From Betaproteobacteria bacterium Ga0077532 (GTDB lineage Bacteria > Pseudomonadota > Gammaproteobacteria > Burkholderiales > Ga0077523): a stretch of DNA of 64,000 nt. Positions within the stretch are counted from its first letter, which is position 1, and every line of letters begins with the position of its first letter. The notes under the pieces were generated by a model that was given only the letters and a program-made list of their open reading frames with translations, was not told where the DNA came from and searched no databases. A program made the position numbers and the translations under genes. Positions 35,049 through 59,422 of the stretch are shown here, in pieces. The stretch is taken from positions 26,360 through 90,359 of the forward strand of contig LNEE01000006.1 of assembly GCA_001464895.1 (NCBI GenBank), written 5' to 3'.

Positions 35049-35169
35049 GCATTCGCTTCATCGGTACGCGGTCGCCTGCGACGAGACCAAATGGCACAAG
35101 GCGTCGGGATGTTGTAAATGCACGCTATTTATGAATAAATGGAAAGTATTAGAAACATCCGATCGATAC

Positions 35170-36868: not shown

Positions 36869-36883
36869 GTTAGCACTGCTAAC
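36869..36883. promoter_or_regulatory. Palindrome GTTAGCACTGCTAAC (operator candidate, copy 2)
   Basis: Same GTTAGCA-N-TGCTAAC as at 35032-35048, downstream of abiEii. Confidence 0.55.
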
Positions 36884-37200
36884 GGCTTTCGGCTGATGGG
36901 TGCAGAAACGGCTTCGGCATGCGAGTTGGTGAAGTAGCGGAATGACAAAGACATGAATTCTGGTGCACTCACTTCGAGCCCCTGTGTCGTAGCGCGGCTT
37001 GGATTCGAGGCCCCGGAAAGTTGCATCTGACGCTACTTCTCGGTGCTCCGGGTTGCTCAATTGGTGATGGCGGCGTCATGGCTCATCCGTTCTGAGAACT
37101 TGAACGCCGGCATCCCAATACCCGATGCCAGCGCAGCGCCACCGGCACCCGCTCCAGCCACAAGAACAACCGTCCGGAGGCGCATTCGAGGGAGAGCCGC

Positions 37201-37791: not shown

Positions 37792-37879
37792 GTCGACGGA
37801 CGGCGTTTTTTGGCCGACCGGACAACTCACCGCTGGATTACGTATCACGCACTGTGTACTCCACTGCGCGGATCCGTCG

Positions 37880-38725
37880 ATGATCAAGTTCACCGTGACG
37901 AGCACCAAGGGCGGTGTCGGCAAGACGACACTGACGGCCAACCTCGGCGGACTTCTGGCCGACCTCGGGCTGCGGGTGCTGCTCGTCGATGCCGACGTGC
38001 AGCCGTCGCTCTCGAAGTACTTCCCCCTCGCGGCGCTTCGTCCCGACGCGGGACTGACCGAAGTCATCGTGCGCGGCGAGGTGACGCCGGCGTGCATCAC
38101 GCCGACTATGTATCGGAACCTCGACATCGTCGTCTCCGACGATCCGGAGGGGCGTCTGCCCCACTGGCTGCTCAACCGGATCGATCGAGGTGTCCGCCTG
38201 CGAATGGCGCTGAAGGCGCCGGCCGTGGTCGATGCCTACGACTGCGTGCTGATCGACACGCCTGGCGCCGTGGGGCCGCTGCAGGATGCGGCGGTGCTTG
38301 CCGCCGATGTTCTGATCTCGCCGATCACTCCGGAGATCCTGTCCGCGCGCGAGTTCCGGGATGGGACGATGGAACTGCTCGAGCGACTGGCACCCGGCGC
38401 GGCACTGGGTGCGATGCCCGCACCGCTCAGGGCTTTGATCTACCGGCAGGATCGCACGGTCGATGCACGCATGATCGCCTGCAGCATCTACGAGGACCTT
38501 TCCCGCTGCGATAGCAGGGTGTCCGTGCTGGACACGGTGGTCCCCCAGGCCAAGGCGTACAAGGAAGCCGCCACATCCCGAATGCCGGTGCACAGGTACG
38601 AGCGGCGGCGAGACGGTGTCATGCCCTCGGCCTACAGCGTCATGCATCGGCTGGCCTGGGAGCTCATCCCGAGTCTGCAGGGCATTCTCGTCGATGGTGA
38701 TCGCGACGCGGCGGGGGCGGCGTGA
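37880..38725 (+). CDS. ParA family ATPase (ICE-type)
   Basis: Deviant Walker A VTSTKGGVGKTTLTANLGGLLADLGLRVLLVDADVQPSLSKYF. Confidence 0.95.
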   Translation: MIKFTVTSTKGGVGKTTLTANLGGLLADLGLRVLLVDADVQPSLSKYFPLAALRPDAGLTEVIVRGEVTPACITPTMYRNLDIVVSDDPEGRLPHWLLNRIDRGVRLRMALKAPAVVDAYDCVLIDTPGAVGPLQDAAVLAADVLISPITPEILSAREFRDGTMELLERLAPGAALGAMPAPLRALIYRQDRTVDARMIACSIYEDLSRCDSRVSVLDTVVPQAKAYKEAATSRMPVHRYERRRDGVMPSAYSVMHRLAWELIPSLQGILVDGDRDAAGAA

Positions 38726-40224: not shown

Positions 40225-40766
40225 TGCTCCCGCTCTACGACCCTCACATCCGCATGCTCCTGCTCCAGCACGTGGCCATGCGCCTCACGCACAGTCCGGG
40301 GTGGGAGGTGCACGCTGCGGGACTGAAGCTCGATCAGGTGTCGATCCTGCGGGACTTGTCCGCGGTGGATCTCGGGGCGCTCGCCGCCATGCGCCATCTC
40401 ACCATCGGCGTGGAGGTGGATGGTCCATCGCTGGATGCCGATCTGCGCGCCGCGCTGCTCGCGCGGGATGCGCGGTGGATGGAGGCGTACTTCCTCCGGC
40501 ACGGTGCGTCGTGGCAGATGATGCGCGCGCTCTTCAAGGTGCACCGGCGATTGACGCACGCGCGTCGCCACGAAAGCGGTGTGGCCCGGCAGTCGGGACG
40601 AATCACCATGCCCGCCCCGGCGCTGAGGGAGTGCATCTACCAGACGTGGTGCGGCATCGACGAGCCGATGCAGCGGATGCGGTACTACCGGTTGCACCAG
40701 CGCTATCCGCAGTGGCCGATCGAAGCGCTCGAACTGATCGTTCGCCAGTACGAGGTCGATCGTTGA
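40224..40766 (+). CDS. DUF2857 family ICE protein
   Basis: Position after parB; TYRS-like C-terminus YQTWCGIDEPMQRMRYYRLHQRYPQWPIEALELIVRQYE. Confidence 0.75.
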   Translation: MLPLYDPHIRMLLLQHVAMRLTHSPGWEVHAAGLKLDQVSILRDLSAVDLGALAAMRHLTIGVEVDGPSLDADLRAALLARDARWMEAYFLRHGASWQMMRALFKVHRRLTHARRHESGVARQSGRITMPAPALRECIYQTWCGIDEPMQRMRYYRLHQRYPQWPIEALELIVRQYEVDR

Positions 40767-41152
40767 AGCACGACGCCCTCGAACGGCCATCGATCACGAA
40801 CGAACTGCTCCTGCAGGTCTTCGATCTGCCGGTGAGCTTCCATCGCTGCCTCGTGCCCATCACCGGTGGTGTCACCTCGGCACTCATGCTGTCGCAGGCG
40901 ATCTGGATCTCGCAGGGTGTCGAGCAGACCGCCGAAGGCTGGTTCGCGCGATCCCAGGACCAGTGGACCGAGGAGACCGGGCTCTCGCGATGGGAGCAGG
41001 AGACCGCCCGGCGGGCGCTGCGTGGCGCCGGCTTCCTGGAGGAGCGCCGCGCCGGCATGCCGGCCAAGCTCTGGTTCCGGGTGCGGGCGGAGTCGGTCTG
41101 GCAGGCGCTGCGCGCCAATGCGGAACGTCCGATGAACGAGGGCGGACGATGA
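40763..41152 (+). CDS. STY4528-like N-terminal module protein (single module)
   Basis: SFHRCLVPITGGVTSALMLSQAIWISQGVEQTAEGWFARSQDQWTEETGLSRWEQETARRALRGAGFLEERRAGMPAKLWFRV; TTG start overlapping DUF2857 stop. Confidence 0.6.
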   Translation: MKHDALERPSITNELLLQVFDLPVSFHRCLVPITGGVTSALMLSQAIWISQGVEQTAEGWFARSQDQWTEETGLSRWEQETARRALRGAGFLEERRAGMPAKLWFRVRAESVWQALRANAERPMNEGGR

Positions 41153-42576
41153 ATCCGCAGAGCCCTCGTCCTCTCAACGCCACAGGACTCACCGCGGTGC
41201 GGGATGCGGACCGCGAACTTGCCATTGTCTGGCCTCTGCTGGGCCGGCACATCGCCTTCCACCGCCGGCTGGTGGACGTGACCGAGAGCGTGAAGGCGGC
41301 GCTGCTGCTGTCCCAGGCGATCTACTGGACGCGACACGGTCGGGACATCGCGGCTGCGGCCGGCTGGTTCTCGAAGACGAGCGACCAGTGGGCGCGAGAG
41401 ACCGGCATGTCCATCAAGGAACAGGCGAGCGCCCGTGCGGCGCTCCGCGACCTCGCCATCCTCGAGGAGCGTCGCGAGGGTCTGCCCGCGAAGCTGCACT
41501 TCCGATTGCGGGCCGAGCGCCTGGCGGATCTGCTCCTCGACGGGATGGGATCCGTCGAGGCCGAGTCCCGAGTCTGGACCGATGCGACGCTGGCGACTGA
41601 ACTGCTGGGGCCGTCGCTCGCCTATCACCGCGTCCTCGCGGGTATCGGCGGCGGCGTGCATGCGGGCCTGATGCTCTCCCGCGCGCTGCATCTCACGCGC
41701 CTCCGTGCGCACCGCGATGCTGAGGCGTGGATCGGCAGCTCGGTCGATTTCTGGCAACGGGAACTCGGGCTCAACCGGCGCGAGCAGGAGACCACCCGAC
41801 GCGATCTCGCCCGGGCGGGAATCTGGGAGGAGTCCCTGGTCGGCGCACCGCCGCGACTGGTGGCGCGGGTCCGGCTGGAGGTGCTTCTGCGCATCCTCGC
41901 GTCGCCGATGGCGTTGCCAACCGGCCCCGAAATGCAGTCGACCGGGCCTGCACATTTCGGCGAATCAGGAATGTGGGAATCCCGCAGTCTTGTTTTGCCG
42001 AAAGCGCCGAAACAGATTTGCCGAAACCGCCGTCACAGATTTGCCGAAAGCGCCGTTCCTAATATACGAATTACAAGAACTTCTACTACAACTACAACAC
42101 CACCACGTTACGAATCCGGCACACCACGTTACGAATCCACCGCTGGTGGTGCCCGCGGAGTCGGTCAGTCGAACGCTGCGCTCGTGCTCCCAGCCGGCCT
42201 GACCGCTGACGAAAGCGCCGCGATCCTGCGTCTCGTCGAACCGTGGCCCGCGCAGGCGCAGGCCCTTCTCGACGAACTCGATGCGCGCCTGCGGGTTGGC
42301 GCAGTCCGTACGAATCCCGTCGCGTACCTGCACGGCATGGTGAAGCGCGCAGCCGAAGGCCGCTTCGTCCCGGAGGCGGGTCTCGCCGCCAGCGCCGATC
42401 GTCGTCGGCGTCGCGATCTTCAAGCGATCCGGTCTCGCCGTGACGACCAACGGCGCGGTCAGCAGGGTACGCGCAGTGCCATCGATCGCGACGCTGAACG
42501 AGCTGCAGGTCGTGCCGTCCTCCGACAACTGCTCGCAACGCTTGGCAGTGAGCGTGCGCGCAAGGACGAATCGTGA
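41149..42576 (+). CDS. STY4528-like ICE protein with two repeated modules
   Basis: Two further copies of the module seen in 40763-41152; ICE position between DUF2857 and TIGR03761. Confidence 0.7.
   Translation: MNPQSPRPLNATGLTAVRDADRELAIVWPLLGRHIAFHRRLVDVTESVKAALLLSQAIYWTRHGRDIAAAAGWFSKTSDQWARETGMSIKEQASARAALRDLAILEERREGLPAKLHFRLRAERLADLLLDGMGSVEAESRVWTDATLATELLGPSLAYHRVLAGIGGGVHAGLMLSRALHLTRLRAHRDAEAWIGSSVDFWQRELGLNRREQETTRRDLARAGIWEESLVGAPPRLVARVRLEVLLRILASPMALPTGPEMQSTGPAHFGESGMWESRSLVLPKAPKQICRNRRHRFAESAVPNIRITRTSTTTTTPPRYESGTPRYESTAGGARGVGQSNAALVLPAGLTADESAAILRLVEPWPAQAQALLDELDARLRVGAVRTNPVAYLHGMVKRAAEGRFVPEAGLAASADRRRRRDLQAIRSRRDDQRRGQQGTRSAIDRDAERAAGRAVLRQLLATLGSERARKDES
41994..42062 (+). 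repeat. About three tandem copies of a 23-bp unit (tttgccgaaa[g/c]cgccg-n7)
   Basis: Units start at 41994, 42017 and 42040; period 23 bp. Confidence 0.85.
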
Positions 42577-43595
42577 CCCAGCGCCCGAACACTTCCAGAT
42601 CCTCCGCCCGTCGTTCCGGTCGTCTGCCTGTCATCGCCGTGAATACGCCCGGATCGTTCGATGCGTCGAAGTCCCACCCGAAGGAGTGCCCCATGCCTGA
42701 TCCTCACGAGATCCATTCCGAAGTGGCGGTCGATGAAGCGCCGCGAGCTGCAGCGTCAGGCCGTTCGTCAGAACAGCCAGGCAACACCTTTCACGCACCT
42801 CACGAGCGCGAGGTCCCCGATCCCGGGTACCTCACCGATGCGGTACCGGACAGGATGACCCTGCACACGCGGGAGGCCTGGCAGCTCTTCACCGGCCGGC
42901 GCGCGGACCCTGCGCGACGAACCACACCGATTCCCGGCGGCCGCCGGTTCGCATCGGTCATGAAGATGCTCTGGCTCCTCTCCGCGAATGACAACCCCTA
43001 CGCCGACTGGATCCTGCAGCGTGTCTACGAGCGGCTCGCTCGTGTCCGCCGACGTCTCGATCGATCGATTCGGGTCCGCGAGGCCGAGATGCAGGAGCTC
43101 GTGACGCGCGGGATGTCGCTGGCGGTCATGGCGTCGAGCGAGCCGATGCACGTGGAGATCGGCTTCGGGAGCCCTTACGGCTACGCGGCTGCGGAGGCGA
43201 TCCTCGAGTTCGACCGGTTCGTGCGCGTCGTGCGGACGCTGATGCACAAGGACCGCCTCGGCGAGAACGAGGGGCGGGCGGCCATCCGGGAGATCGGTCG
43301 CGAGTTTCGCGCGCTCTTCGTGGAGCCGATCCGCTGGGAGCGGTACCTCGTGACCGACGAGCTGCGTGCGCTGTCCCGCCGCGACTATCTCCCAGACGCG
43401 GACGAAGCCGCCTGCGAGCGGGTGAGGGCAGCGGCACGGCTGTTCGGCGCGGTACCCCGGGACATCTTCACCGGCAACCTGCAGCCACGGCACACGCGCC
43501 GGCGCATCCGGCTGACCGAGGCGGAGCGCCGTCTGCTTCTGGACGTGGATCTGGGCGCGGTGGCGGCATCTGCGGTTGGTGGAGCGTCTGCATGA
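42573..43595 (+). CDS. TIGR03761-family integrating conjugative element protein
   Basis: LHTREAWQLFTGRRADPARRTTPIPGGRRFASVMKMLWLLSANDNPYADWILQRVYERL. Confidence 0.88.
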   Translation: MTQRPNTSRSSARRSGRLPVIAVNTPGSFDASKSHPKECPMPDPHEIHSEVAVDEAPRAAASGRSSEQPGNTFHAPHEREVPDPGYLTDAVPDRMTLHTREAWQLFTGRRADPARRTTPIPGGRRFASVMKMLWLLSANDNPYADWILQRVYERLARVRRRLDRSIRVREAEMQELVTRGMSLAVMASSEPMHVEIGFGSPYGYAAAEAILEFDRFVRVVRTLMHKDRLGENEGRAAIREIGREFRALFVEPIRWERYLVTDELRALSRRDYLPDADEAACERVRAAARLFGAVPRDIFTGNLQPRHTRRRIRLTEAERRLLLDVDLGAVAASAVGGASA

Positions 43596-43768
43596 GTTGG
43601 GGCCGATCGGCACCGCGCGGATCGAGCGCGGGACGGCGCTGGTGTGTTGCGTGGCAGCGCGCACGGAGCGGCGGCGTCGCTGCCGCCGTGCCGTGCGGTT
43701 GCCGGAGATCGCGTCCGGCAATGTCGCCGGACGCGGAACGGGATGCCCTGGACGGGCAGGGAGGCAGC

Positions 43769-44164
43769 ATGACGAACGAGTTCCGAGGTACTGGCAATGT
43801 CGGCGAGGAGCCGCTCCTGAGGACCGTGGTGGTGGGGGAGACCGAGCGACAGCTCGCCCAGTTGCGCGTCTTCTTCGACGAGTACCACAAGGATGTGGGC
43901 GGGCAGTGGGTCCAGAGCGGAGGCTTCTGGCTGGAGGTGAACGTCTGGGGTGGCCGGCATCCCGCCGAGGTGGCGCAGCTCATCCGCAAGGGCGCGCGGA
44001 TCCACGTCATCGGTCGGCTCGCCGAGCACCAGTGGCGGGTCACGGGCACCGGCGAGGAACGTCGCGCCATGCAGGTCGAGGCCGAGCAGGTTTTCCTGGG
44101 GCTCGCGCGGGTGGAGGAGGTGCGCTTCCGGCCGCGGCGAGAGACAGCCACGGAGGAGGGTTGA
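43769..44164 (+). CDS. ICE single-stranded DNA-binding-protein-like
   Basis: FRGTGNVGEEPLLRTVVVGETERQLAQLRVFFDEY...GGFWLEVNVWGGRHPAEVAQLIRKGARIHVIGRL. Confidence 0.75.
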   Translation: MTNEFRGTGNVGEEPLLRTVVVGETERQLAQLRVFFDEYHKDVGGQWVQSGGFWLEVNVWGGRHPAEVAQLIRKGARIHVIGRLAEHQWRVTGTGEERRAMQVEAEQVFLGLARVEEVRFRPRRETATEEG

Positions 44165-44166
44165 TC

Positions 44167-44667
44167 ATGCGCGCCTGCCAGCGTCACGCGCGTGCGGAGG
44201 AGTGCCGGATGGTGCGTGCGATCGCGCTCGATGCCGTACTCGATGCAGCCCGTGGCGGAAGCTGGACCGGCCGCTTCGGCGCCTTCCGGATCGTCGCCTG
44301 TCGACGGATGCTGTATCTGCGTGACCGCCATCGCGTGAGCGTCGATCTGTACGTGTGGTTCGACGGTCTCCTCGTGGAGTGCGGTGTGCAGAGCATCCGC
44401 TTCACGGCGCGCGCCGGAGATGACATACGCGCGAAGTCAGCGGAGATTCACGTGGAACCAGCGCCCATGCCGACGGTCTCTCCCAGGAGCAAAGTGCAGT
44501 CCCCGTGGCCACGTCATCGGCATGGCGGCCAATCGGGGCAGGGTGTACCGCGGTCACCGATTTCTTCGTGGGCGCGACGGAGGCACTTCACGCATGCACC
44601 GCGTCCGCAAGGACGCACAAACCGGCATCACCTCCCGCAAGCCGGCGACCGCAAGGTCCGGAGGTAG
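44167..44667 (+). CDS. Hypothetical ICE protein
   Basis: Open frame after the ssb-like gene; N-terminal ~100 aa look coding, C-terminal part may be read-through of non-coding sequence. Confidence 0.4.
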   Translation: MRACQRHARAEECRMVRAIALDAVLDAARGGSWTGRFGAFRIVACRRMLYLRDRHRVSVDLYVWFDGLLVECGVQSIRFTARAGDDIRAKSAEIHVEPAPMPTVSPRSKVQSPWPRHRHGGQSGQGVPRSPISSWARRRHFTHAPRPQGRTNRHHLPQAGDRKVRR

Positions 44668-44686
44668 TCGTCGTAGTCGCAACCCG

Positions 44687-44756
44687 CCTGGGGAATCCAC
44701 TCCCCGGCAGGGGCATGGTTCCCCGTCCTTCCTGTCCATGTGTAAAGGAGACGAGC
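44687..44756 (+). promoter_or_regulatory. Structured 5' leader 1 (radC-RNA-motif-like) upstream of DUF3577
   Basis: cctGGGGAatccacTCCCCggcaGGGGcatggttCCCCgtcc ... aaggagacgagcATG. Confidence 0.6.
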
Positions 44757-45197
44757 ATGTCCCAGCAGAGCGGTCAGTCCACCAAGTCGGCGTTCTTCGA
44801 TCTCACGGTCGATGGTGTCGGCTATCTCAACCGTGTCCGGGCCGTGAAGCCCAAGAAAGGGGCCGAGTTCCTGGCCTGCACGGTCGCCGCCATGCGCGGC
44901 AACGTCGGGGATCTCGGTTACACCAAGTTCGACTGCCGGGTCAGCGGCGCGGATGCGAAGAAGATCGTGCAATTGCTCGAGGCCGACGTCACGGCCGAGC
45001 GCACGGTCCTCGTCGGATTCCGCATTGCCGACATCTATCCCGAAACCTTCGTCTTCGAGAAGGGCGAGAAGAAGGGACAGACCGGCGTGAGTCTCAAGGG
45101 TCGGCTGCTGCGCATCAAGTTCGCCAGGGTCAATGGCGAGCCGGTGAGCCTGCCGACGCCCACCAGCGTCAACGGCGAGGACGACACCGACGCCTGA
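44757..45197 (+). CDS. DUF3577 / STY4534-family ICE replication-associated protein
   Basis: FFDLTVDGVGYLNRVRAVKPKKGAEFLACTVAAMRGNVGDLGYTKFDCRVSGADAKKIV. Confidence 0.9.
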   Translation: MSQQSGQSTKSAFFDLTVDGVGYLNRVRAVKPKKGAEFLACTVAAMRGNVGDLGYTKFDCRVSGADAKKIVQLLEADVTAERTVLVGFRIADIYPETFVFEKGEKKGQTGVSLKGRLLRIKFARVNGEPVSLPTPTSVNGEDDTDA

Positions 45198-45260
45198 GTG
45201 TCGTGCCGTTGCAGGTTTCCGTCACACGTTCGCGTCACGCTTTTCCGTGACACACGTCCA

Positions 45261-45324
45261 CCACCCCGAGGGGAGTCTCTCCCTCCCGGGGCGAGGTCTC
45301 CCTGTTTGCATCTCAGGAGGCCTC
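45261..45324 (+). promoter_or_regulatory. Structured 5' leader 2 (radC-RNA-motif-like)
   Basis: acCCCgaGGGGagtctctcCCTCccGGGGcgaggtctccctgtttgcatctcaggaggcctcATG. Confidence 0.6.
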
Positions 45325-45571
45325 ATGCGTACCGCTCTCTTCAACGTCATCCGCGATCCGAAGCTCGTGGTCCTGATGATCGTCCTGTCGCAGGTCGTGG
45401 CAATCGCTTCGCGGGTGTGGTCCCTGTGCATCCGCGGATCTCGTGCGCCAGGCAGTCGCTGCCGACGTCGGTGTTCGTGATCTGCAGTCGTTCTTCTTTC
45501 ATCTCGCGCCGGACGTCCGCTCAGCAGGGGCGGTCCGGCTCACTCGTTCAACCCTCGGGGAATCTCGTTCC
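45325..45571 (+). pseudogene. Small ICE membrane protein, apparently frameshifted
   Basis: [38 protein letters not shown] in one frame, continued by [27 protein letters not shown] in another, shift near 45437. Confidence 0.45.
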
Positions 45572-45616
45572 CCTGGGGGCGCGGTGTTCCCCGCATCGTC
45601 CATGCAGGAGAACACC
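45551..45616 (+). promoter_or_regulatory. Structured 5' leader 3 (radC-RNA-motif-like) upstream of radC
   Basis: accctcGGGGAatctcgTTCCCCtGGGGgcgcggtgttCCCCgcatcgtccatgcaggagaacaccATG. Confidence 0.65.
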
Positions 45617-46210
45617 ATGAGTAGAACCATCGAAGGCATGTCGGATGTGGAAGTCCTGGGACTCATCGTCGGGAGTGCCGTGGCCGACTGGTATCTCCAG
45701 GAGGCCGGCGGGAGTCTCTCGGCGCTGCTCGACGAGGCGACCGACACTGGACCCACGAGGCAGTGGGTGCAGTCTCGTGTACGGGCCGCGGCCGAACTGA
45801 TGCGGCGCTCGCTGCTGCAGACGCTCGGGACCCGGGATGTCCTGACGGAACCGGACCGCGTTCGGGAGTTCCTCCTCCTGACGCTGTCGGGTCGGACGCG
45901 GGAGGTCTTCGTCGTGATCTTCATGGATGCGCAGAACCGGGTCATCGCGTCCGAGGAGTTGTTCCAGGGAACCTTGACCCAGACGAGCGTGTATCCCCGG
46001 GAAGTCGTGCGGCGGGTGCTCGCGCTCAATGCGGCATCGGTGATCTTCGCCCACAACCATCCGTCGGGTGTCGCAGAGCCCAGTCACGCCGATCAGGCGC
46101 TGACGAAGGCACTGAAGTTGGCGCTGGCGCTGGTGGATGTGGCGGTCCTGGATCACTTCGTCGTGGCGGGTACAGGCGCGGTGTCGTTCGCAGAACGCGG
46201 TCTGCTGTAG
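45617..46210 (+). CDS. radC: RadC-family JAB/MPN-domain protein
   Basis: [44 protein letters not shown]. Confidence 0.95.
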
Positions 46211-46312
46211 CTGTCGTGGTGCCGTCGCCGGTGTTGTCGACCGGCGGCGATTCGTGAGGGCGTGATCATCGTCGCGCCTGGAATGCGGTCCGGATCACCG
46301 GACCGCTTCCTT

Positions 46313-46378
46313 CACCCTGGCGGGGATGCGTCATCCCGTCGGGGGATGCCGTCTCCGCCAATTCTCGGAGACACAGTC
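46313..46378 (+). promoter_or_regulatory. Structured 5' leader 4 (radC-RNA-motif-like) upstream of DUF932
   Basis: caccctggcGGGGATgcgtcATCCCgtcgGGGGATgccgtctcc...ctcggagacacagtcATG. Confidence 0.6.
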
Positions 46379-47458
46379 ATGAAGAACGGACGTTCCCTGT
46401 CGGACCTGGCCCTCGAACTGGAGCGGCAGCTCGGCTCCAAGCAGGATTTCGTGGTGCCGTCGTCGCTTCTCCGGTGCAGCACGGCCGAGGACGGCGTCCT
46501 CTCGATGTGGATCACCGGTGGTGGTGTCGGTGGCGAGTTCGGTGTCACGGAACTCGCCCGCCGGCAACTCGCCGACAAGTTGAGGATCCCGTTCGCGTAC
46601 TTCGAACGGATGCGCACCGAGCGGCCGGAACTGCTCGATCGCAACGTCAACACCTGGCTGGGGGCCGATGGTGACCGGCGCATGATCCGGACACTGGACG
46701 GTCAGGTTCGCGCGGTGCTGTCCGACCGCTATCGTCGCCTCGACAATCACGACCTCGCGGAAGCGGTGCTGCCGATCCTGCAGCGGCTGCCGGGTGCCAC
46801 CTTCGAGTCGGTCGAACTCACCCAGACGCGGATGTACCTGAAGGTGGTGACATCGCGGATCCAAGAGGAGATCGTTCCCGGGGATGTGGTGCAGGCCGGT
46901 GTGATGATCACCAACTCGGAAGTGGGCGAGGGCACGTTGTCGGTGCAGCCGCTGGTGTTTCGACTAGTGTGTCGGAACGGTCTGATCGTTCCCGATCGTG
47001 GCCTGCGCAAGACACATATGGGTCGAAGCCTGGCGACCGATTCACAGCCGGTGGCCGTCTTTCGGGATGACACGCTCGCCGCCGATGACCGGGCCTTCTT
47101 CATGAAGGTGCGGGACGTGGTGGAGTCGGCCGTCTCGGAGGCCGCAGGCTCGGCAAGCTCGTTCCGGCAGGTGGCGGACAGGATGCGTCGGGCTCGCGGG
47201 ATCCCGCTGTCGGGGGATCCGGTAATGGCGGTTGCTGTGCTGGCGAATCGTCACGGGTTGAACGACACCGAGCGTGGTGGCGTGCTGCGGCATCTGATCC
47301 GGGAAGGGGATCTCTCGGGTTACGGGGTCGTGAACGCCGTGACGCACTACTCGCAGGAGGTCGAGGACTACGACCGCGCGACGGAACTCGAAGCGCTGGG
47401 CGGCAAGCTGATCGAACTCGGCTCCGGTGAGTGGCAGGAGATCGCGGAAGCGGCGTGA
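46379..47458 (+). CDS. DUF932 domain-containing protein
   Basis: FGVTELARRQLADKLRIPFAYFERMRTERPELLDRNVNTWL...RAVLSDRYRRLDNHDLAEAVLPIL. Confidence 0.92.
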   Translation: MKNGRSLSDLALELERQLGSKQDFVVPSSLLRCSTAEDGVLSMWITGGGVGGEFGVTELARRQLADKLRIPFAYFERMRTERPELLDRNVNTWLGADGDRRMIRTLDGQVRAVLSDRYRRLDNHDLAEAVLPILQRLPGATFESVELTQTRMYLKVVTSRIQEEIVPGDVVQAGVMITNSEVGEGTLSVQPLVFRLVCRNGLIVPDRGLRKTHMGRSLATDSQPVAVFRDDTLAADDRAFFMKVRDVVESAVSEAAGSASSFRQVADRMRRARGIPLSGDPVMAVAVLANRHGLNDTERGGVLRHLIREGDLSGYGVVNAVTHYSQEVEDYDRATELEALGGKLIELGSGEWQEIAEAA

Positions 47459-47804
47459 ACGAGTGGATGCTCCCTGTCGGGGTGTCTTCGGTTCGAAGTA
47501 CTTGATGTACTGCCATTGGCCCGGTGCGACCTCACGGTTGCCCGGGCTGTTTTTCTTTTCGGTCTGTCGGTTCCGAAGCGACGAGTGCGACGCGGCGAAT
47601 GGCGCTCCGGCGTAACCGAATCAAGCGAACTTCGCGACCGAGCGCTCGCTCGGTCGACACGCGCAGCGAAGGGATCTCTTCGCAGCACAAGAAAGCTCAG
47701 GTGCACCGAGCGAGGCGCCCACCCTGATACGCCGCTGGCGGGGAAGGACAGTGAATTGCAGCGATCCACTAGTCCTGCGTCGAGCTCGTGTGGCCCACAA
47801 TGAC

Positions 47805-47883
47805 GTCCAACGATGAGCTTCAGAGGGCGCCAGCGCGCGGGCGAAGCACGCTTCTGGCGGTTCCCTGGAAGAATGGGTTGGAC
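47805..47883 (-). repeat. attC-like site A
   Basis: GTCCAAC ... GTTGGAC (RYYYAAC...GTTRRRY) with imperfect internal palindrome and central gaagc-ac-gcttc hairpin; outer 11 bp tgacgtccaac/gttggacgtca. Confidence 0.75.
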
Positions 47884-47884
47884 G

Positions 47885-48856
47885 TCATGCTTGCGCCACA
47901 GGACCAACAGGAATGAAACGGTGTATCTGCAAGAACTCCTTGCCGGCATCGATATCGTCGTGGCGGAAGCCGGCGAAGACTCTTGAGTTCATCTGAGCAA
48001 GAGTGGACGCACTTTGCGGTGATTCTCCCGTGTAGATGTATTCCCGCGCCATGACAACCGTTCTTCTGTTGAACTCCTCAACCTCAGCGCAGGTTGCGAC
48101 ACGTTCAGAGTGTGGCTGAGCTACATGGTCAAGCATGACAAGGACGCGACTGGACAGAGGGAAGCTTACTTCGACACCGGGTGTGCCTGGCCCCGCGCCG
48201 CAGGCGCTCTTCCAAAGAGTGGGGTGGTAGAGAGCGACTGGCTGATCTGACGTGACAAAGCAACTGCCAGCGGGGACGCGAAAGAGAGTGGCCCGCATGC
48301 GGGCAAATATTTGCAGCACCTTGTCGCTCGATCCCATTCTGAACATCACCTCGAGACACTTCCAGTTCAGGACTTTTATATCAAGGTTCTCCACGCGCAG
48401 TTTATCTTCTAGCCCCTTCGGTGGCAGTGGTAGGCGGCCAGCTCTTTGAAGTGCGAGTGCTGTGGCTCGCACTGTCGAACCGTATGAACGATCGATGTGC
48501 TGTTTCACGGCCGGAACCCGCATTCGCATGATTGCTAGTAGTTCAAGCAGACTTAGCCGCCTGTGTTCCAGTCCAATTCCTTCAGCTAGGGTTCTTTGAA
48601 GTTGATCGGCTTGCTGGCTCTCTGCCTCGGCCAGATTCTTTTCGAAGAGGTAGGGATCGTCAGTGCCTTCTCCATCCAGCTCGTGGTAATCGCGGATCGC
48701 TGCAATGTCTTTGATCTGACACCCATAGTGACGGCCTGTCGACTTCTCGACCTGAAAGATGCCGCGTCGGTCGACAGAGAACCCTCGCAGATAGAACTGC
48801 GGTAGGAAGTGATGCTTGCGTGGCTCCGAAGCGGCTTTCATGACGCCCCAGGGCAA
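47885..48856 (-). CDS. DUF4238 domain-containing protein (cassette ORF)
   Basis: PRKHHFLPQFYLRGFSVDRRG...GSCFVTSDQPVALYHP. Confidence 0.85.
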   Translation of the reverse strand: MPWGVMKAASEPRKHHFLPQFYLRGFSVDRRGIFQVEKSTGRHYGCQIKDIAAIRDYHELDGEGTDDPYLFEKNLAEAESQQADQLQRTLAEGIGLEHRRLSLLELLAIMRMRVPAVKQHIDRSYGSTVRATALALQRAGRLPLPPKGLEDKLRVENLDIKVLNWKCLEVMFRMGSSDKVLQIFARMRATLFRVPAGSCFVTSDQPVALYHPTLWKSACGAGPGTPGVEVSFPLSSRVLVMLDHVAQPHSERVATCAEVEEFNRRTVVMAREYIYTGESPQSASTLAQMNSRVFAGFRHDDIDAGKEFLQIHRFIPVGPVAQA

Positions 48857-48930
48857 GCATCACCTGACGGTGCCGCGGTGCGAAGCACGCCGTTGACGAT
48901 CAAGCGCATACGTGCGGTGGCCGTCATCGG

Positions 48931-49359
48931 TCACATCCACTGGTGCTCATAGATGGTCCTTCGAAGCGCTCGTGCAGCAAAGAACGCCATCTGCTCGAGC
49001 TCGTATGCGGTCTCTCGGGGCTGATCAAGAAGACTCTCGTCATTCCATGGATCATCAACGTGTACCCACTTGTTGCGGTACTTTCGCAACCTGTGAAGGT
49101 CCTCCTTCAGTCCGTTGTCGAGTGAAGCGCGGTCTATCAAATCGATGAGGCGCGCCCTCCCGGGTTCCGAACACGCAGACCGAAGGTAAGTCTCTATTCC
49201 AGAGACAGCCGTGAGGATTGACGCGAGATGCGCGCCCCCCACGTACGCAATATCCGCCTCGCGAACAATGAAGCAGCACCATTCGGACAGGATCACCCCG
49301 CCCTTCAGCAGTTCTTCGTCAAGGGCAGTCAGTGCCGCCCATCGCTCATCGCCATTCAT
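48931..49359 (-). CDS. Hypothetical protein (cassette ORF)
   Basis: ORF MNGDERWAALTALDEELLKGG...LHRLRKYRNKWVHVDDPWND; same strand, ends at attC C. Confidence 0.6.
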   Translation of the reverse strand: MNGDERWAALTALDEELLKGGVILSEWCCFIVREADIAYVGGAHLASILTAVSGIETYLRSACSEPGRARLIDLIDRASLDNGLKEDLHRLRKYRNKWVHVDDPWNDESLLDQPRETAYELEQMAFFAARALRRTIYEHQWM

Positions 49360-49362
49360 GAC

Positions 49363-49441
49363 GGCCAACGTTTGGCATGAGCGGCGTGTGGAGGCGGGTG
49401 AAGCCCGCTGTAACACGTCCGCTCGGTGGAGGGGTTATGCC
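49363..49441 (-). repeat. attC-like site C
   Basis: Minus strand GGCATAACCCCTCCACCGAGCGGAC...GCCGCTCATGCCAAACGTTGGCC; strong match to the conserved L''/L' regions. Confidence 0.8.
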
Positions 49442-50352
49442 CCACCGAACCCATAGTAGGCGCTGATCGCGCTGCCTAGAAGTCCGCCTGCGGCCGCAAC
49501 CCCTACGTCCCAGGCTCCTTCGGCCGCCTTCTTTACCATTGCGGCTATCCAACCTCTGACAGCCGGTCCGAGCATTCTAGTTCGAACATCGTCAGTGTTT
49601 GCGTCGGCTACGATCGCCTGGCGCAGCTCATGAATGTCCTCGTCTCTAACGTGTTGCGCCCGCAGCACCTTCGCAAGACTCTCCAGATCGTTGACTGCGA
49701 TGCTGTTGGTCACGCCCTGAATTGAGCCACTACCAACAACTATGGTCGTGTTGCTGCCAAACACCGCATTCCTGAACACTTCTGACACTAAGACCTCCTG
49801 CGAGACTTGTTTCATCCGGTCTGGCTCCGGTTCAAGGGGGATTCGATCTGACACCTCGAGAGCCAGCTCAAGGAGTCGCGACCTTACCTCCACCACCACC
49901 TGGAGCATCGCTCCAACGGAATGCTTACCCCAGGCACGCTCGATCTTGAAGCTTCTATCGATGCCATTCTTGATGTGCGGGTAGTACTCCGGTGCAAGTA
50001 CAACTGACAGATCTGAATCACGCTTCGACCATTCCTCGATAACTGCGATGCTCTGTGTCAGGTGCGTTGTTTCCAGCTTTTCTCGGAGGCGCTTCTCAAC
50101 ACTCATGAGAGGAAGAGGTTGATCGGTGTACCTGACCACGCCATTGCTGAGGTTTGCCATTACCGTGACCGGGATGATGCGGTAGGGTGGAAGGAGCGCA
50201 CGATCGGGATAGCCCTTCAGCTCACTTGCCACCCATTGCTTAAGTTCTTGCTCTCCCAGTTGATGAGCGAGAACCTGCGCTTTGAACAGCGCATTCTCAA
50301 GGCTTGGTGCACTTGCACTGAGCAGGTCGATGATTTCTTGCAGCAACCGCAC
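49435..50352 (-). CDS. AbiTii-domain protein (cassette ORF)
   Basis: MRLLQEIIDLLSASAPSLENALFKAQVLAHQLGEQELKQWVASELKGYPDRALLPPYRIIP. Confidence 0.85.
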   Translation of the reverse strand: MRLLQEIIDLLSASAPSLENALFKAQVLAHQLGEQELKQWVASELKGYPDRALLPPYRIIPVTVMANLSNGVVRYTDQPLPLMSVEKRLREKLETTHLTQSIAVIEEWSKRDSDLSVVLAPEYYPHIKNGIDRSFKIERAWGKHSVGAMLQVVVEVRSRLLELALEVSDRIPLEPEPDRMKQVSQEVLVSEVFRNAVFGSNTTIVVGSGSIQGVTNSIAVNDLESLAKVLRAQHVRDEDIHELRQAIVADANTDDVRTRMLGPAVRGWIAAMVKKAAEGAWDVGVAAAGGLLGSAISAYYGFGGA

Positions 50353-50369
50353 GGGGCTACCTCAGTGGG

Positions 50370-50495
50370 GTATATCGTTTGAGATGAGCGGACGCCTCCA
50401 GTGTGGTACTTGGTCCGCGAAGCGGACGACGGCACCGGTCGGTGCGCACGCCGAGTGCCACGACGTTGGAGGTCCGAGCGAGCGAAGGGTTAGTC
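50370..50495 (-). repeat. attC-like site D (126 bp)
   Basis: Minus strand GACTAACCCTTCGCTCGCTCGGACCTCCAAC...GTCCGCTTCGCGGAC...GGCGTCCGCTCATCTCAAACGATATAC. Confidence 0.8.
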
Positions 50496-50975
50496 GGCTT
50501 CACGGTAGATGCGCAGCCACTCACTTGGCGTGACAACGGTTGCGGCGCAGGCGGCTCGCAACTCATCTCGCTTGTCTAGGATTCTGCGATCCGTGGTGAT
50601 GAAGTAGCCAACATACTTGCCCGCTTCAAAGACGTGAGAAGCGTCGGCAGCATACTTTTCAGGGTTGCCATTCCCTGTGAGTACAGCGTGGATCTGCGCC
50701 TTCCGCGCCTGTTCTTCTGCGGTGAGATCGGTCTCGATCGTAAAGATCATCGCTCTGGCCTCGCGCTTTACGTCTTCCGGGGTGTTGGGATGCTCAAGCT
50801 CTTTCTGGTTTGAGTGGGCGAGAAGAACGCTGATTCTTCCGGCATCGGCTATTCCTCGAATCTCCCGCGCAGCCGCGTCTTCTGGCGCGTACTTGGGGTC
50901 GAAGGCACACGTATCGAGGAAACTATTCGCGCGCCTCGGGTCTTGGAGGGGGCGACTGACGGGGACTCGTGCCAT
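50490..50975 (-). CDS. PIN-like nuclease domain protein (cassette ORF)
   Basis: NSFLDTCAFDPKYAPEDAAAREI...AADASHVFEAGKYVGYFITTDRRILDKRDEL. Confidence 0.7.
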   Translation of the reverse strand: MARVPVSRPLQDPRRANSFLDTCAFDPKYAPEDAAAREIRGIADAGRISVLLAHSNQKELEHPNTPEDVKREARAMIFTIETDLTAEEQARKAQIHAVLTGNGNPEKYAADASHVFEAGKYVGYFITTDRRILDKRDELRAACAATVVTPSEWLRIYREAD

Positions 50976-50986
50976 GGTGTTCAGGC

Positions 50987-51053
50987 GCTTAAGGTTTGAG
51001 TTCACAGGCCTGCGCTGCTTTTCACGCAGATCCAGTGCAATGATGGGTTGGGC
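50987..51053 (-). repeat. attC-like site E (67 bp)
   Basis: Minus strand GCCCAAC ... CTGTGAACTCAAACCTTAAGC; R'' perfect, R' with one deviation. Confidence 0.65.
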
Positions 51054-51634
51054 TAATCGGCAAGTACATATACTGGCGGTTCGATCGGAGTGGGTGGCAA
51101 ATTGCTTTCCGTCGATAACTGGTCCAATTGTGTAGCACCCGATTGGAGTTCTGCATCCTGAACTCCTGTCAGTTTGAGGACTCGCTTGACGCTGTACCCG
51201 GAGATTTGGGTCTCGACCCACGCAGTACTCCCGCGCCAACGCTTCCGAAACGTAGCTAGAGATTTATGTTCGAGACCGGCGGATGACAGAAGACGATGCG
51301 TCGCCGCTAGCGAAGATTGGTTATCAAGCAGGTTTGTTAGCGCTTGAATTAGCCCCTTGGCGTCCGCCATCCCATGAAGGTTCTTTTCCGCCGCGTAGAC
51401 TTTCTTCAATTTGTCTTCAATCGTTGCCAATTCGACCTTGGAAACGAGGTGGAACGCTTTACCAAACTGTTGGAGTTCATAGGTCGCACGACAAGTGGGA
51501 CACGAGATGCTCGCTTCGTACCATTCAGGTGTAGAGACGCTCCAGCCGTGGTCGGGTGTGCAATAGTCGATCTCGAAACTTCCCTTGCCGCAGGCGCATG
51601 GCCCCGAGAACTCACTCCTTCGGTCAGTCCCCAT
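51053..51634 (-). CDS. Hypothetical protein with zinc-ribbon-like cysteines (cassette ORF)
   Basis: CACGKGSFEIDYC ... CPTC pattern; ends at attC E. Confidence 0.6.
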   Translation of the reverse strand: MGTDRRSEFSGPCACGKGSFEIDYCTPDHGWSVSTPEWYEASISCPTCRATYELQQFGKAFHLVSKVELATIEDKLKKVYAAEKNLHGMADAKGLIQALTNLLDNQSSLAATHRLLSSAGLEHKSLATFRKRWRGSTAWVETQISGYSVKRVLKLTGVQDAELQSGATQLDQLSTESNLPPTPIEPPVYVLAD

Positions 51635-52155
51635 TCAAAATTCTCCGAAAGTAAGTTGCCCAACAAAATATGGACAGGGATTTGACGTCCAACACGCGGC
51701 GCTCCTTTCCTGTGAGGTGATGAGACACGCAAATTGACATCTATGACGCAGCACACGGACTGACTTGCCGTACCGCACCTGGAGCCTCCCGATGCTGCTG
51801 GCTTCCCCACCTGGCGACGTTGTCACGCCGCGATCACGCTTGCTCGACCGGGTACGCCACGATGTCCGCCTGAGGCATTGAGCATCCGCACCGGGACGGC
51901 CGCGCCCCGAGGGGTTGCGCGGCTTGGGGTCTTTCGAACTGCTACCGCTGGTGGTGCTACTCGGCCTGCCAATATTCGGATATCGACCACGGATCGCGCC
52001 TCGCGCCTCGCCAACGGTCGCTGTTGCCTCGATCTTCTTCCGATAGCGTCGCTATCCAGAAAACCTACGCAGAGGCGCCTGCACCTTCGCGAACGTGAGA
52101 ATTGCTGACGTTATCCTAGCACTCGGCGGAACACGGTTCCTACGTCCTGACGCAG

Positions 52156-52458
52156 TCAGTCGGTCACCTCCTGCTCCATCACCTGCAGCCGCCCGAACAC
52201 CTCCGCGATATCCCCCACCCCGTGCAACTTGAGCACCACTCGCGCCGCCTGGAAGTCCAACCGCAGCGGTTCCCCACTCATGGGGTCGCAGATCCATTGA
52301 GCCTGCAGGCGCATGACGATCGGTACGGTCTCCCAGTTCTCAGGCCAGACGTCGAAGTACCCGCATTCGCTGGCGGCTTCCGTTGCTTGAACAAGTGCAT
52401 GGGCGGTGGCAGTGTTACCGCCGAAGGCTTGGATGTCGTCGAGGGCGCCGGGTTCGCC
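52156..52458 (-). pseudogene. DUF1799-like phage-type protein, remnant without a clear start
   Basis: Minus-frame translation DDIQAFGGNTATAHALVQATEAASECGYFDVWPENWETVPIVMRLQAQW...DFQAARVVLKLHGVGDIAEVFGRLQVMEQEVTD*. Confidence 0.45.
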
Positions 52459-52477
52459 GGGTGAAGATGCAGGGCCG

Positions 52478-52914
52478 CTAGGCGCAGGGCGCGAACCCTG
52501 GCGCGGGCGGGAGCTGCCAGTTCTTTCGGGCGCCCTGCCCGCTCATTGCTTCGAAGTACGCCACGGCAATGGCGTAGGCCTTACCGGTGACCTCAAGGAG
52601 TTGGTCGCGGTACACTGGCGTAGGCACGCAGCAGCGGCCCGTAGGCTGGCGCGGTACCGGCGGCAACGGGCGCTGGCCAGTTCGCACTCGAACCCGACTG
52701 ACGCGCGTATGGCGACGGGGATCTGCTCGGAGTTGCCGAAGTACGGGCGGATCAGATTCCGGCTCACCAGTACGCTGTCCTGGTGGCGCCTCCGCATGGT
52801 GCTGACCAGGATGGCGGGCTCCGTTCCCGAAGGTGCGGGGTAGGTGACGTACGTCGACTCGATTTTCCCGAGCAGGATGCGGTTACTAGGCCGGAGCCTG
52901 GCGGAGCAGTTCAT
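52478..52914 (-). pseudogene. Frameshifted remnant upstream of the DUF1799-like sequence
   Basis: MNCSARLRPSNRILLGKIESTYVTYPAPSG...AAACLRQ in one frame continues as VYRDQLLEVTGKAYAIAVAYFEAMSGQGARKNWQLPPAPGFAPCA* in another. Confidence 0.4.
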
Positions 52915-53022
52915 CGTTCACGGCGGTGCTTCAGCGAGTTGTCGGGCACGCGCAGGCGTGAGCCCAGCCCGGGCGAGCGGTGGCGTGTGATCACGTGGTG
53001 CACCACGTATGCACACAACAAC

Positions 53023-55755: not shown

Positions 55756-58700
55756 GTGCAAGAGATACTCGAGTTAACAATTGCCAGAGACGCTGCCGCG
55801 GAAGAGATCGCCGCAGATGATGACTGGCGCCTCTTTAGGCCTGACGTCGGAGACGATGGCGCCTCCTACGGGAAGCTTCGCAGCATAGCGAAGCTACCTC
55901 ATGATGAGTCTGTGAGCCGACTTACCGAATTTGCCGCAACGCTCGACGTCTCCTCCCCACAAGGTCTGCGCGCGCGAGTAGCTGCAATGCTGCTGCGTGA
56001 TCTTCTTCAGATCGGTTGGGATGTTCGAATCACCGGCCACCATATCTATGTTCGACCCCAGTCATCGCGTCAGCCCCAAGAGCGGAAGGAGCAGATACGT
56101 AAGCAGTTGCTGTACGGGCGCGACAACCAACTAGCCGAGGATTCCCACAAGCGCTTCATCTACGGCGTTGAGCGACCAAACCGCTACTCCTCATGCAAGC
56201 CAATCTCGGACTTGATCGCCGACGGTAGAAGGCTTCACCAGCAACTGATTGTCATTCAGTCATTGCCTGAAGCCGAACGGATTGGTGCTCTGTCGTCGAT
56301 CTGCAGACCGTACCTCCAACTCGTTAGCGATGAGCGAGACCAGTTCACCAATATTCGACTCATCGACATCTGGAGGTACTTTCGCCACAGTTGGAGCATG
56401 AGGTATCGAAGTTCGCCAGGGCGGAACCTCTTCTACTTGGTTCGCGATGCCGCACAGCCCAACCATCCCGTAATCGGGATCTCCGCGCTTGGAAACACAG
56501 TGATGCAACTCACCCCGCGTGACGAGATGCTGGGGTGGACGATCGCCGGGCTATTGAAGAGGCACCGCGACGGAGTTGTCCGAAATGACGAGTTGCTCAG
56601 TGCATTTCTTCATCGCTTACGCGAGGACTATGAGCAAGTCTACCGAGATGACCTGCCGTTGATCGGGGTCATCGAAGCCGACGCTAACGACGAGACGCTG
56701 AGTCGCTTAGCCGTCATTGAGCACGATGAAGCGAGGAACCGGGAAGACACGTTGCGCTCGGACGACGATACCTACGTCCCCAAGAAAGATGAGTTACTGA
56801 CGCTTGAGGATCTGCTGGCAGCAACCACAACACCACTGTTTCGCTCCAAGCGGGCGCGCGCCCTTCGTGAGGTCCTCCGGGCCTATCGGATTATCGCCTC
56901 AGGGACTGTGGTTGGGATTGAGGGACTAGCTAGCACCGAGGACGGAGTGTGGGCGCTCAGTACAGTTCTCAAGCAATTGAAGAAACGTCACTCCGCCACG
57001 AGCATGATGGAGATAACGGTGTGCGGGGCTATCGCACCGTACAACCATCTGCTCGGTGGAAAGTTGGTCTGTCTGATGATGATGAGCCCGAAGGTTGTCC
57101 TTGACTACAAGCAGCGGTATGGAGGGACTGTCAGCATTATTGCAAGCAAGATGGCCGGCCGACCAATCGTCAAGGATCCAGGCCTCGTGTTCTTGGGTAC
57201 GACAAGCCTCTACACCGACAACTCCTCTCAGTACAACCGCGTCAAGGTTCCCGATGGCTCGATGCAGGGCCAGGTTGGAGAACTTCGGTATGAGAAGTTG
57301 GGAAGGACGATCGGTTTCGGCTCACCGAACCTCTCTGCGGATACCGAGCGCGGCTTGGCTGCGATATCTGTCATGGCAAGCGGCTACCGCAATGTCAACT
57401 TCGTCTTCGGCGAAGGACAGAGCCCAAAATTGAGACTCCTTCGCGAGGGGTTTGCAGCGCTCGGTCTAAATCAATCGAACCTACTCCAGCACGGCAGTCC
57501 GCGGATCGTCTATGGCGTTCACCTTGCGCGGAACGCTGTGCGTGTATTGTTGGGAGTCGACGATCGACCGGAGTATCTGCTGCCTCTTGACAACCCGGAG
57601 GCGGAGACGGCAATCGTCACCTATTGGATCAAGAGATGGCTGGCAAGCAGGCTAAATCATCAGCCAGCGATGCAGAAGGTGGCGGAATCTGTGCCACTTG
57701 CCGAGCGCGTTAGTCGCTTGATTCCAACGCGACGTGACAAAGATGAAATGCAGCGATCGCTGCTTTTCAATGTGATGGGGAGGAACGACAAAATGTCGCT
57801 TGATGTCCGCGAGGATGACCGGATCCGATTCATCAGACTCCTCTACAGAAATGAGACCGCGTTTGCTGACCACGTTTTGGTTGGTCGACTCCGTGAACTG
57901 AACATCAAGACCAACCTTGAGGACGTAGTCCGCAAGGTAGTGCGAGCGGGTGGCTCAATTGTCATTACTGGGAACGCGGGGGATGGAAAGACCCATGCAA
58001 TCCGCCTGATGGAAAAGGAACTCAAGGGAGCTGATGTCGTTACCGATGCCAGTGAGCTGACATACCAAGAAATTCTGCAGCGTTGGCAGGCCGCGCGGGA
58101 TTCCAAACGTCCATTCTGCATTGCCATCAATGAAGGTCCGCTTGTCGATCTTGTACGGCAGTACCGGGTCGAACACCCTTGGCTTGAGTCAGTTCGCGAG
58201 CAACTGCTGAAGTTGGTTTCATATCAACCACTGGAGCACGAGTTCGACGAGGATGGCGAGAAGTTTTCTGCGACGCCAGGCGAGACCGTGATCATCGACC
58301 TTAGCCACCGGCAGGTGCTGTCCGAGCAACTGGTCGGGAGCATGATCGAGAAACTCACCGACGATAGTTGGTACGAATCATGTGCCTCGTGCCCAGCAAA
58401 TCGCGAATGTGCAGTTACATACAACCGCAAGATGCTCCGCCAAGAGCGTCCGAAATCAAGGATGACAAAGCTCTTGACGAGCGCGGGAAGGAAGGGGCGG
58501 AAGGTAACGTTTCGTGAAGCATTGGCCTTTCTTTCCTATTGCTTGTTCTCTGGAAAATCCTGTGACGAGTTGCGCCAAGCGGGGACCAGCGAAGAGGTTC
58601 GCTACTACTGGAATGCCTTCGAGGGTGAAGGTGCCGTTTTCGAATTGCTTGATGCAGGCCTTGACCCGATTAAGCAAACCAACGCTCGGATAGATGAAGA

Positions 58701-59415
58701 TCTTTGGCGGGGCCGGTTCATGCCAGAAGAGTTCCTCGGCCACATTTGGTTGCCAGTCGAGCAGCGGAATCTTGATGAGATCAGCGAGCAAGAGAATCGA
58801 GAAGCGACTGAGGAGTTTGGTCAGTTGAAACGTCGCTGGTACTTTGAACATCCGGAGGGACACCTCCTAGACTTCTCAGAGGCGAATGCTCGATTCGAGA
58901 AGTTGCAGGACACGCAGGCGCCCATGGCGATTCGCCTCGGGATGTTGATCAAGTTAATCAATGCCTGGTGGAACCGTTCTTCCGAGCCGAAGGACGACGC
59001 CTTGCGATTGTGGACGAAGTTGACTTATCAGCCGCGTGGACGAACGCTTGCCATGGTGTCGGGGCTTAACGTCAACCGCATGAGACTGCGGCTATATCGG
59101 CCGCAACTCGCGCCAGTACTGCGCCGTGCATTTGGACGGCAACCTGTCACCCACCTACTGCTTGCTTCTGCCGACGACCCTCGCTACGCCCGCTTGGTGG
59201 TCGATCCGGAACTGATCGACGGCTTGATTCACGGTGCATTTTCAGACGGACAGACCCCCACAGTTAGGCGGCTTATTCAGTTCAACGACGCACTATCACA
59301 GTATGGTGATCGTAGTCCTGATGTACGCACTATCGAGGTGCTCGATCCTCAGAGTGAGATGCGAGCCGCCGTGGTGGTCGATCTAGTCAATCGTCGTTAC
59401 GACTCTGCCAACTAA
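55756..59415 (+). CDS. DUF4338 (DruA-like) - DptF-like P-loop ATPase fusion protein
   Basis: N-terminal half: EITVCGAIAPYNHLLGGKLVCLMMMSPKVVLDYKQRYGG...LVFLGTTSLYTDNSSQYNRVKVP (DUF4338-like). C-terminal half: Walker A ITGNAGDGKTHAIRLM (aa 739-746), CIAINEGPLVDLVRQYR, Cys cluster YESCASCPANRECAVTYNRKM (DptF-like). Confidence 0.75.
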   Translation: MQEILELTIARDAAAEEIAADDDWRLFRPDVGDDGASYGKLRSIAKLPHDESVSRLTEFAATLDVSSPQGLRARVAAMLLRDLLQIGWDVRITGHHIYVRPQSSRQPQERKEQIRKQLLYGRDNQLAEDSHKRFIYGVERPNRYSSCKPISDLIADGRRLHQQLIVIQSLPEAERIGALSSICRPYLQLVSDERDQFTNIRLIDIWRYFRHSWSMRYRSSPGRNLFYLVRDAAQPNHPVIGISALGNTVMQLTPRDEMLGWTIAGLLKRHRDGVVRNDELLSAFLHRLREDYEQVYRDDLPLIGVIEADANDETLSRLAVIEHDEARNREDTLRSDDDTYVPKKDELLTLEDLLAATTTPLFRSKRARALREVLRAYRIIASGTVVGIEGLASTEDGVWALSTVLKQLKKRHSATSMMEITVCGAIAPYNHLLGGKLVCLMMMSPKVVLDYKQRYGGTVSIIASKMAGRPIVKDPGLVFLGTTSLYTDNSSQYNRVKVPDGSMQGQVGELRYEKLGRTIGFGSPNLSADTERGLAAISVMASGYRNVNFVFGEGQSPKLRLLREGFAALGLNQSNLLQHGSPRIVYGVHLARNAVRVLLGVDDRPEYLLPLDNPEAETAIVTYWIKRWLASRLNHQPAMQKVAESVPLAERVSRLIPTRRDKDEMQRSLLFNVMGRNDKMSLDVREDDRIRFIRLLYRNETAFADHVLVGRLRELNIKTNLEDVVRKVVRAGGSIVITGNAGDGKTHAIRLMEKELKGADVVTDASELTYQEILQRWQAARDSKRPFCIAINEGPLVDLVRQYRVEHPWLESVREQLLKLVSYQPLEHEFDEDGEKFSATPGETVIIDLSHRQVLSEQLVGSMIEKLTDDSWYESCASCPANRECAVTYNRKMLRQERPKSRMTKLLTSAGRKGRKVTFREALAFLSYCLFSGKSCDELRQAGTSEEVRYYWNAFEGEGAVFELLDAGLDPIKQTNARIDEDLWRGRFMPEEFLGHIWLPVEQRNLDEISEQENREATEEFGQLKRRWYFEHPEGHLLDFSEANARFEKLQDTQAPMAIRLGMLIKLINAWWNRSSEPKDDALRLWTKLTYQPRGRTLAMVSGLNVNRMRLRLYRPQLAPVLRRAFGRQPVTHLLLASADDPRYARLVVDPELIDGLIHGAFSDGQTPTVRRLIQFNDALSQYGDRSPDVRTIEVLDPQSEMRAAVVVDLVNRRYDSAN

Positions 59416-59422
59416 GCATGCC

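Follow-up and report, generated by a model that had tools for sequence, protein, structure and literature searches.

A probable degraded integron carried as cargo by a guaA-linked element of the PFGI-1 class in a betaproteobacterium

Cassette arrays that hold several attC recombination sites and no functional integrase (CALINs) probably derive from integrons that have degraded, and their number is close to that of complete integrons (PMC9024848). A stretch of 64,000 nucleotides from Betaproteobacteria bacterium Ga0077532 (assembly GCA_001464895.1, contig LNEE01000006.1, positions 26,360 to 90,359), hereafter the window, contains five consecutive minus-strand open reading frames (ORFs) separated by sites with paired R''/R' boxes. 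From its letters alone this array was originally predicted to be a CALIN embedded in a guaA-type integrative and conjugative element (ICE), where it would let defence cassettes spread between hosts. The locus raises the question of whether such an array was ever equipped with an integrase, and how it came to lie in the element. Here, we describe the recombination sites, cassettes, and carrier of the array, which is very probably a degraded integron lying within the cargo slot of an element that belongs to the PFGI-1 class of ICEs and is integrated at guaA.

The attI site and the integrase remnant

The array begins at an attI site located at 51658-51693 on the minus strand, with the crossover box GTTGGGC at 51664-51658 and the first repeat, GTTGGAC, at 51693. 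Of the 36 bases of this site, 29 agree with the attI of the genus, and no other 36-mer of the window agrees at more than 22; by this match the GTTGGAC at 51693, originally taken as an attC end, is the first repeat of attI. Five other attI copies of the genus, found on contigs C45 and C39 of the same genome and three times in genome G006, are alike up to GTTRGGC and diverge from the next base onward, as expected of different first cassettes, which marks GTTRGGC as the crossover point.

Next to attI lies an intI pseudogene stub (51792-51881, plus strand) in which the N-terminal 29 codons run into a stop in the same frame, at codon 30. A full-length IntI, scoring 471.6 bits where the cut-off is 265, is encoded on contig C45 of the same genome. 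A tblastn search with this protein matched the stub over residues 4-29 at 65% identity (E 5e-6, 51801-51878) and found no further parts of IntI elsewhere in the 64-kb window. The DNA upstream of the C45 intI (locus L001) aligns by blastn to window positions 51924-51658 on the minus strand at 70% over 292 columns (E 7e-39), and the alignment ends exactly at GTTGGGC, the starting point of the cassettes.

Since attI and the adjoining intI stub are both present, the array is read as a degraded integron. Among the parts of a complete integron, the window contains attI beside intI and attC-bounded cassettes in one orientation, and lacks a functional intI. The original statement that the window holds no intI is thus correct for a functional gene but overlooks the 29-codon stub. 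Likewise, the name CALIN suits the array under the working definition, which asks for two or more attC sites and no detectable intI, but an integrase-less origin is contradicted by the stub and attI next to it.

The attC sites and the cassettes between them

All four R''/R' pairs named in the original prediction were found on the minus strand exactly where they had been placed. The stops of ORF1, ORF2, and ORF3 overlap their own R'' boxes and that of ORF5 falls 2 nt short of R'', which bears out the description of stops overlapping or abutting these boxes. For an independent assessment, an attC covariance model was built from 33 attC sites of integrons in named public genomes, none of them from the window. 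The training sites were taken beside integron integrases at 80 public-genome loci and aligned, and the R and L helices, which covary within the training set, were modelled. A cmsearch of the 64 kb returned attC 1, attC 3, and the terminal attC as its three best matches, at 35.9, 29.8, and 29.3 bits and E values from 1.8e-6 to 6.5e-5, with the next match at 14.5 bits. This model was trained on sites of at most 81 nt, which puts the 126-nt attC 2 beyond its reach. A second test therefore used a profile of the two ends of attC that left the length between them free, in which the four named sites were the top four over both strands (40.2, 32.7, 30.0, and 25.7), the next best score in the window being 19.3 and the maximum over 20 simulated sequences of 64 kb (1.28 Mb) being 20.9. 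The model alignments show R''/R' and L''/L' pairing, unpaired spacers, and an extrahelical base. A strict attC pattern search recovered only the terminal attC, and an Rfam scan of the window at gathering thresholds returned no match.

The sites also resemble the attC sites of other integrons. Identity is 84-86% for attC 1 (L052, L042, L018), 77% for attC 3 (to a genus attC), 69% over 116 nt for attC 2 (genome G002, L174), and 67-73% for the terminal attC. Identity to L042 and L018, or to other matched loci such as L025 and L012, is no further independent test of the model because these loci supplied training sites.

The five cassettes all lie on the minus strand, and the array has a GC content of 56.4% compared with 65% around it, which marks its composition as foreign. 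Cassette 1 (50993-51663, 671 bp) carries ORF1 (51634-51053), encoding a 193-aa protein that has two pairs of cysteines resembling CxxC close to its N terminus. The cassette starts with TTGGGC, and its R'' box, GCCCAAC, matches the reverse complement of the R' box at this start, GTTGGGC, without a mismatch. It ends in attC 1 (50987-51053, GCCCAAC/CTTAAGC; E 1.8e-6). Cassette 2 (50376-50992, 617 bp), between attC 1 and attC 2, carries ORF2 (50975-50490, 161 aa), and attC 2 (50370-50495, GACTAAC/GATATAC), with its long loop, is the site that scored 30.0 with the ends profile. Cassette 3 (49369-50375, 1007 bp) carries ORF3 (50352-49435) and is followed by attC 3 (49363-49440, GCATAAC/GTTGGCC; E 5e-5). 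Cassette 4 (48851-49368) carries ORF4 (49359-48931, 142 aa), and cassette 5 (47811-48850) carries ORF5 (48841-47885). The array closes with the terminal attC (47805-47883, GTCCAAC/GTTGGAC; E 6.5e-5), the R boxes of which are perfectly complementary.

The gap between ORF4 and ORF5 holds a decayed attC (48845-48922, minus strand), so that the array comprises five one-gene cassettes. The R boxes of this site, GGCCACC and CTGGGGC, are broken and the covariance model did not match it, yet it matches predicted attC sites of two genomes of the genus, G002 (L175:6469-6546; 75% identity across 68 nt, E 5e-8) and G009 (L158:1229-1306; 85% across 53 nt); the best E value from 200 shuffles was 0.001. The four inter-ORF sites of the original prediction are thus all real, but its count falls short by this fifth site. 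An arrangement in which ORF4 and ORF5 form a single two-gene cassette had been entertained and was rejected after the decayed site was found between them. Cassettes 4 and 5 are now fused.

The sites differ in their apparent capacity to recombine. Three sites, attI, attC 3, and the terminal attC, retain the GTT crossover triplet, which attC 1 (CTT), attC 2 (GAT), and the decayed attC have lost; across the distinct attC matches of the genus and the window it is kept in 58 of 68, and in 4 more it stands one base earlier. When the recombining strand was folded as single-stranded DNA and compared with shuffles, as the original prediction had proposed for the minus strand, attC 3 (z -4.37) and the terminal attC (z -3.02), which folds into an R/L double hairpin, gave clear results, whereas attC 2 was weak (z -1.12) and attC 1 no better than shuffles (z 0.20). 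On established knowledge of integron recombination, attC 1 and attC 2 would be impaired.

Two of the cassette proteins belong to recognizable families. ORF3 is AbiTii (Pfam PF18864, 126.6 bits against a cut-off of 27.6, E 1.8e-36; PADLOC AbiTii, E 1.8e-35), and ORF5 is a DUF4238 protein (Pfam PF14022, 101.7 bits against a cut-off of 27, E 6.2e-29) that also matches the PADLOC candidate family DUF4238-Pers (E 7.7e-13). These cassettes probably add anti-phage or toxin-like functions. None of the five was found to be a resistance gene by the family searches run. By eye, ORF2 has PIN-like motifs and ORF4 a HEPN-like RNxxxH motif, which are leads only; single-sequence structure models were unusable, with mean predicted local distance difference test (pLDDT) scores of 50 for ORF2 and 44 for ORF4, and gave no support to either likeness. 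A fold search with the ORF2 model had no match at E 0.001 or better and is given no weight, and comparison of both sequences with solved structures returned nothing meaningful.

In plasmids, tblastn found AbiTii relatives of at most 41% identity, DUF4238 relatives of 24-27%, and no match for ORF1, ORF2, or ORF4. DUF4238 matches occur in 8 of 399 genomes of the order (7 besides the window's own) and are mostly weak, and AbiTii occurs in 2 of 150 relatives, one of which is the window's own genome. The genomes and plasmids searched yielded no second copy of the array or of its cassettes. A concatenated search with four cassette proteins in 369 genomes scored few candidates, which makes its negatives weak.

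The guaA-linked carrier and the rival explanations

Upstream of the array lie guaB (28781-30259) and guaA (30328-31971), directly followed by a tyrosine integrase gene. The backbone of the element (32268-47458, plus strand) encodes this tyrosine integrase, ParA, an ICE_PFGI_1 ParB (TIGR03764, 178 bits), PFL_4669 (TIGR03761, 134 bits), an STY4534-family ICE replication protein (146 bits), RadC, and DUF932, of which ParB, PFL_4669, and STY4534 are PFGI-1-class genes. Genome G002, of the same genus, has the identical order of guaB, guaA, integrase, parA, parB, PFL_4669, STY4534, RadC, DUF932, and a second integrase gene. The array is situated inside the cargo slot of the element, because the two genes that flank it neighbour each other in G002 where the array is missing. 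This slot (47459-53022), bounded by the genes for DUF932 and the PF12834 integrase, measures 5.6 kb here, is empty at about 115 bp in G002, and holds 2.26 kb of unrelated cargo in G016; it is a cargo hotspot of this guaA-linked element family. G016 has two copies of the slot (L105, L106), each with about 2.3 kb of different cargo. A remnant of a phage tail family (phrog_680, E 2.8e-12; 52158-52460, minus strand) separates the intI stub from the second integrase gene, which makes the slot a mosaic.

The G002 copy runs on into genes for TraD (811 bits), F-type TraC (783 bits), and a TraG-like protein, and into a weak match to a relaxase. The window's contig stops at the end of the window, before the far end of the element. 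A degraded element and a missing contig both fit the conjugation genes being absent from this draft, and "ICE-class element" is the safe wording. The guaA-type ICE of the original prediction is supported as regards the guaA location and the PFGI-1-class backbone, but not as regards conjugation genes, and the label ICE would hold only through kinship with the G002-type element. Elsewhere in the element, an AbiEi/AbiEii pair lies at 35131-36632, near its integrase end, and the region 55756-63914 encodes a protein that resembles DruA1 (PADLOC, 487 bits) and, at its C terminus, SspF; an SspG-like protein and a 1003-aa ORF without a match follow it. The DruA1-like/SspG-like cluster is a possible defence system.

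Other histories would leave some of the same marks. A true CALIN would have received its cassettes singly from a trans-acting IntI at a secondary site of the element and would never have had an intI there. The window indeed lacks a functional intI, and CALINs distant from intI are common (PMC12444791, PMC9024848). Against this, the window still has the 5' remnant of intI, the region upstream of it, and attI, and these parts are collinear with those of the complete integron elsewhere in the genome. Unless it came in on its own, the remnant contradicts such a history, which we consider very improbable. Hardly any credence can be given to an ordinary defence operon with hairpins between its genes that merely resemble attC. 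The genes are indeed closely spaced on one strand, and AbiTii and DUF4238 also occur outside integrons, yet the independent attC model with its null controls, the stop codons within R'' boxes, the 69-86% identity to attC sites of other integrons, and an attI at the correct end refute an operon as far as sequence allows. Finally, a fragment of a chromosomal integron might have been wrongly joined into the element at a repeat, the assembly being a draft of 62 contigs in which two other contigs break inside a common cassette. Such a mis-join is very improbable: the 90-kb contig extends well beyond the slot on both sides, a relative holds different cargo in the same slot, and there is no near-identical repeat to join on, because the attI and attC sites have diverged from the other copies.

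Several results weigh against a degraded integron carrying defence cassettes on a mobile element. The loss of GTT in two attC sites means that site activity may be nil. ORF1, ORF2, and ORF4 matched no Pfam or PHROGs family at the thresholds used, so that the original description of defence cassettes applies to AbiTii, weakly to DUF4238, and to none of these three by family. No attC was detectable near the AbiTii and DUF4238 homologues at the homologue loci tested; these genes thus enter integrons and are not bound to them. TraD, TraC-F, and the TIGR03760 relaxase had no match in the window's own draft assembly, which is 89.8% complete.

On the preferred reading, the degraded integron would have been assembled by IntI, moved into the element together with a piece of its flanking DNA, and lost its own integrase after that move. 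Any mobility that remains would be provided in trans, with the other IntI of the genome acting on the GTT-intact sites attI, attC 3, and the terminal attC. By the logic of the sites, the dead attC between cassettes 4 and 5 would make these two leave as a unit, and cassettes 1-3 would be locked or lost as a block.

Integrons across the genus and related systems

In a sample of 12 genomes of the genus, the window's own included, intI matches above the cut-off occur in 11 and attC matches in 9. Contigs C45 (at the end of L001) and C39 (at the start of L005) of the window's own genome terminate in the same 98-bp piece of one cassette, oriented alike in both. This shared end adjoins a different attI site in each, and the assembly breaks inside the cassette, which points to its occurrence in two arrays. 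At three loci, L177 (G000 C39), L164 (G006 C14), and L165 (G006 C46), intI is truncated at the same point, around codon 88. These loci, from two genomes, have in common a short flank and the same 36-bp attI, each followed by a different first cassette, and thus form a dispersed platform with a stub intI. A further intI-promoter-attI remnant, with a decayed attI core, is found at L167 (G006 C22), and a lone attC-like site (L108:9881-9971, 30.6 bits) lies near the end of contig C24 beside a transposase-like ORF.

Platforms with a truncated intI and a common attI make it conceivable that one IntI serves them in trans. A wider and rather unlikely proposal is that one working IntI serves scattered non-autonomous platforms of attI plus cassettes with truncated intI, and that one of these rides the guaA-linked element as a transferable outpost of the chromosomal system.

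Integrons on ICEs such as SXT usually have resistance cassettes and a full integrase. The present array is likewise a cassette array on an ICE-class element, but its intI is dead and the searches run revealed no resistance cassette. In Xanthomonas, intI has been inactivated through stop codons or deletions while cassettes were kept, and CALINs occur away from the main locus, one of them on a conjugative plasmid (PMC12444791). The inactivated platform with retained cassettes is alike in both cases, although the platform is at ilvD in Xanthomonas, whereas here a guaA-linked element holds it in its cargo slot. The Shewanella prophage M16-3 carries an integron and a CALIN (PMC9892861); it shares with our array the placement on a mobile element of an array with its own attI and no integrase, but it is a prophage that also has a complete integron, whereas the carrier here is an ICE-class element. 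With CALINs in the IntegronFinder definition (PMC9024848) the array shares several attC sites and the lack of a functional integrase; here attI and the intI stub are still recognizable, and the origin from a degraded integron is visible.

CALINs and degraded integrons are common, and the array in the window is a further case with an unusually legible history. It is a firmly placed case in which an integron of the chromosomal type serves as the cargo of an ICE-class element, and its origin can be read from attI and the intI stub. It also illustrates a route by which non-resistance cassettes, AbiTii included, enter a vehicle that is in principle mobile between hosts, and in this way the array could let defence cassettes spread from one host to another. 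The genus may be suited to testing whether a single IntI serves several platforms in trans.

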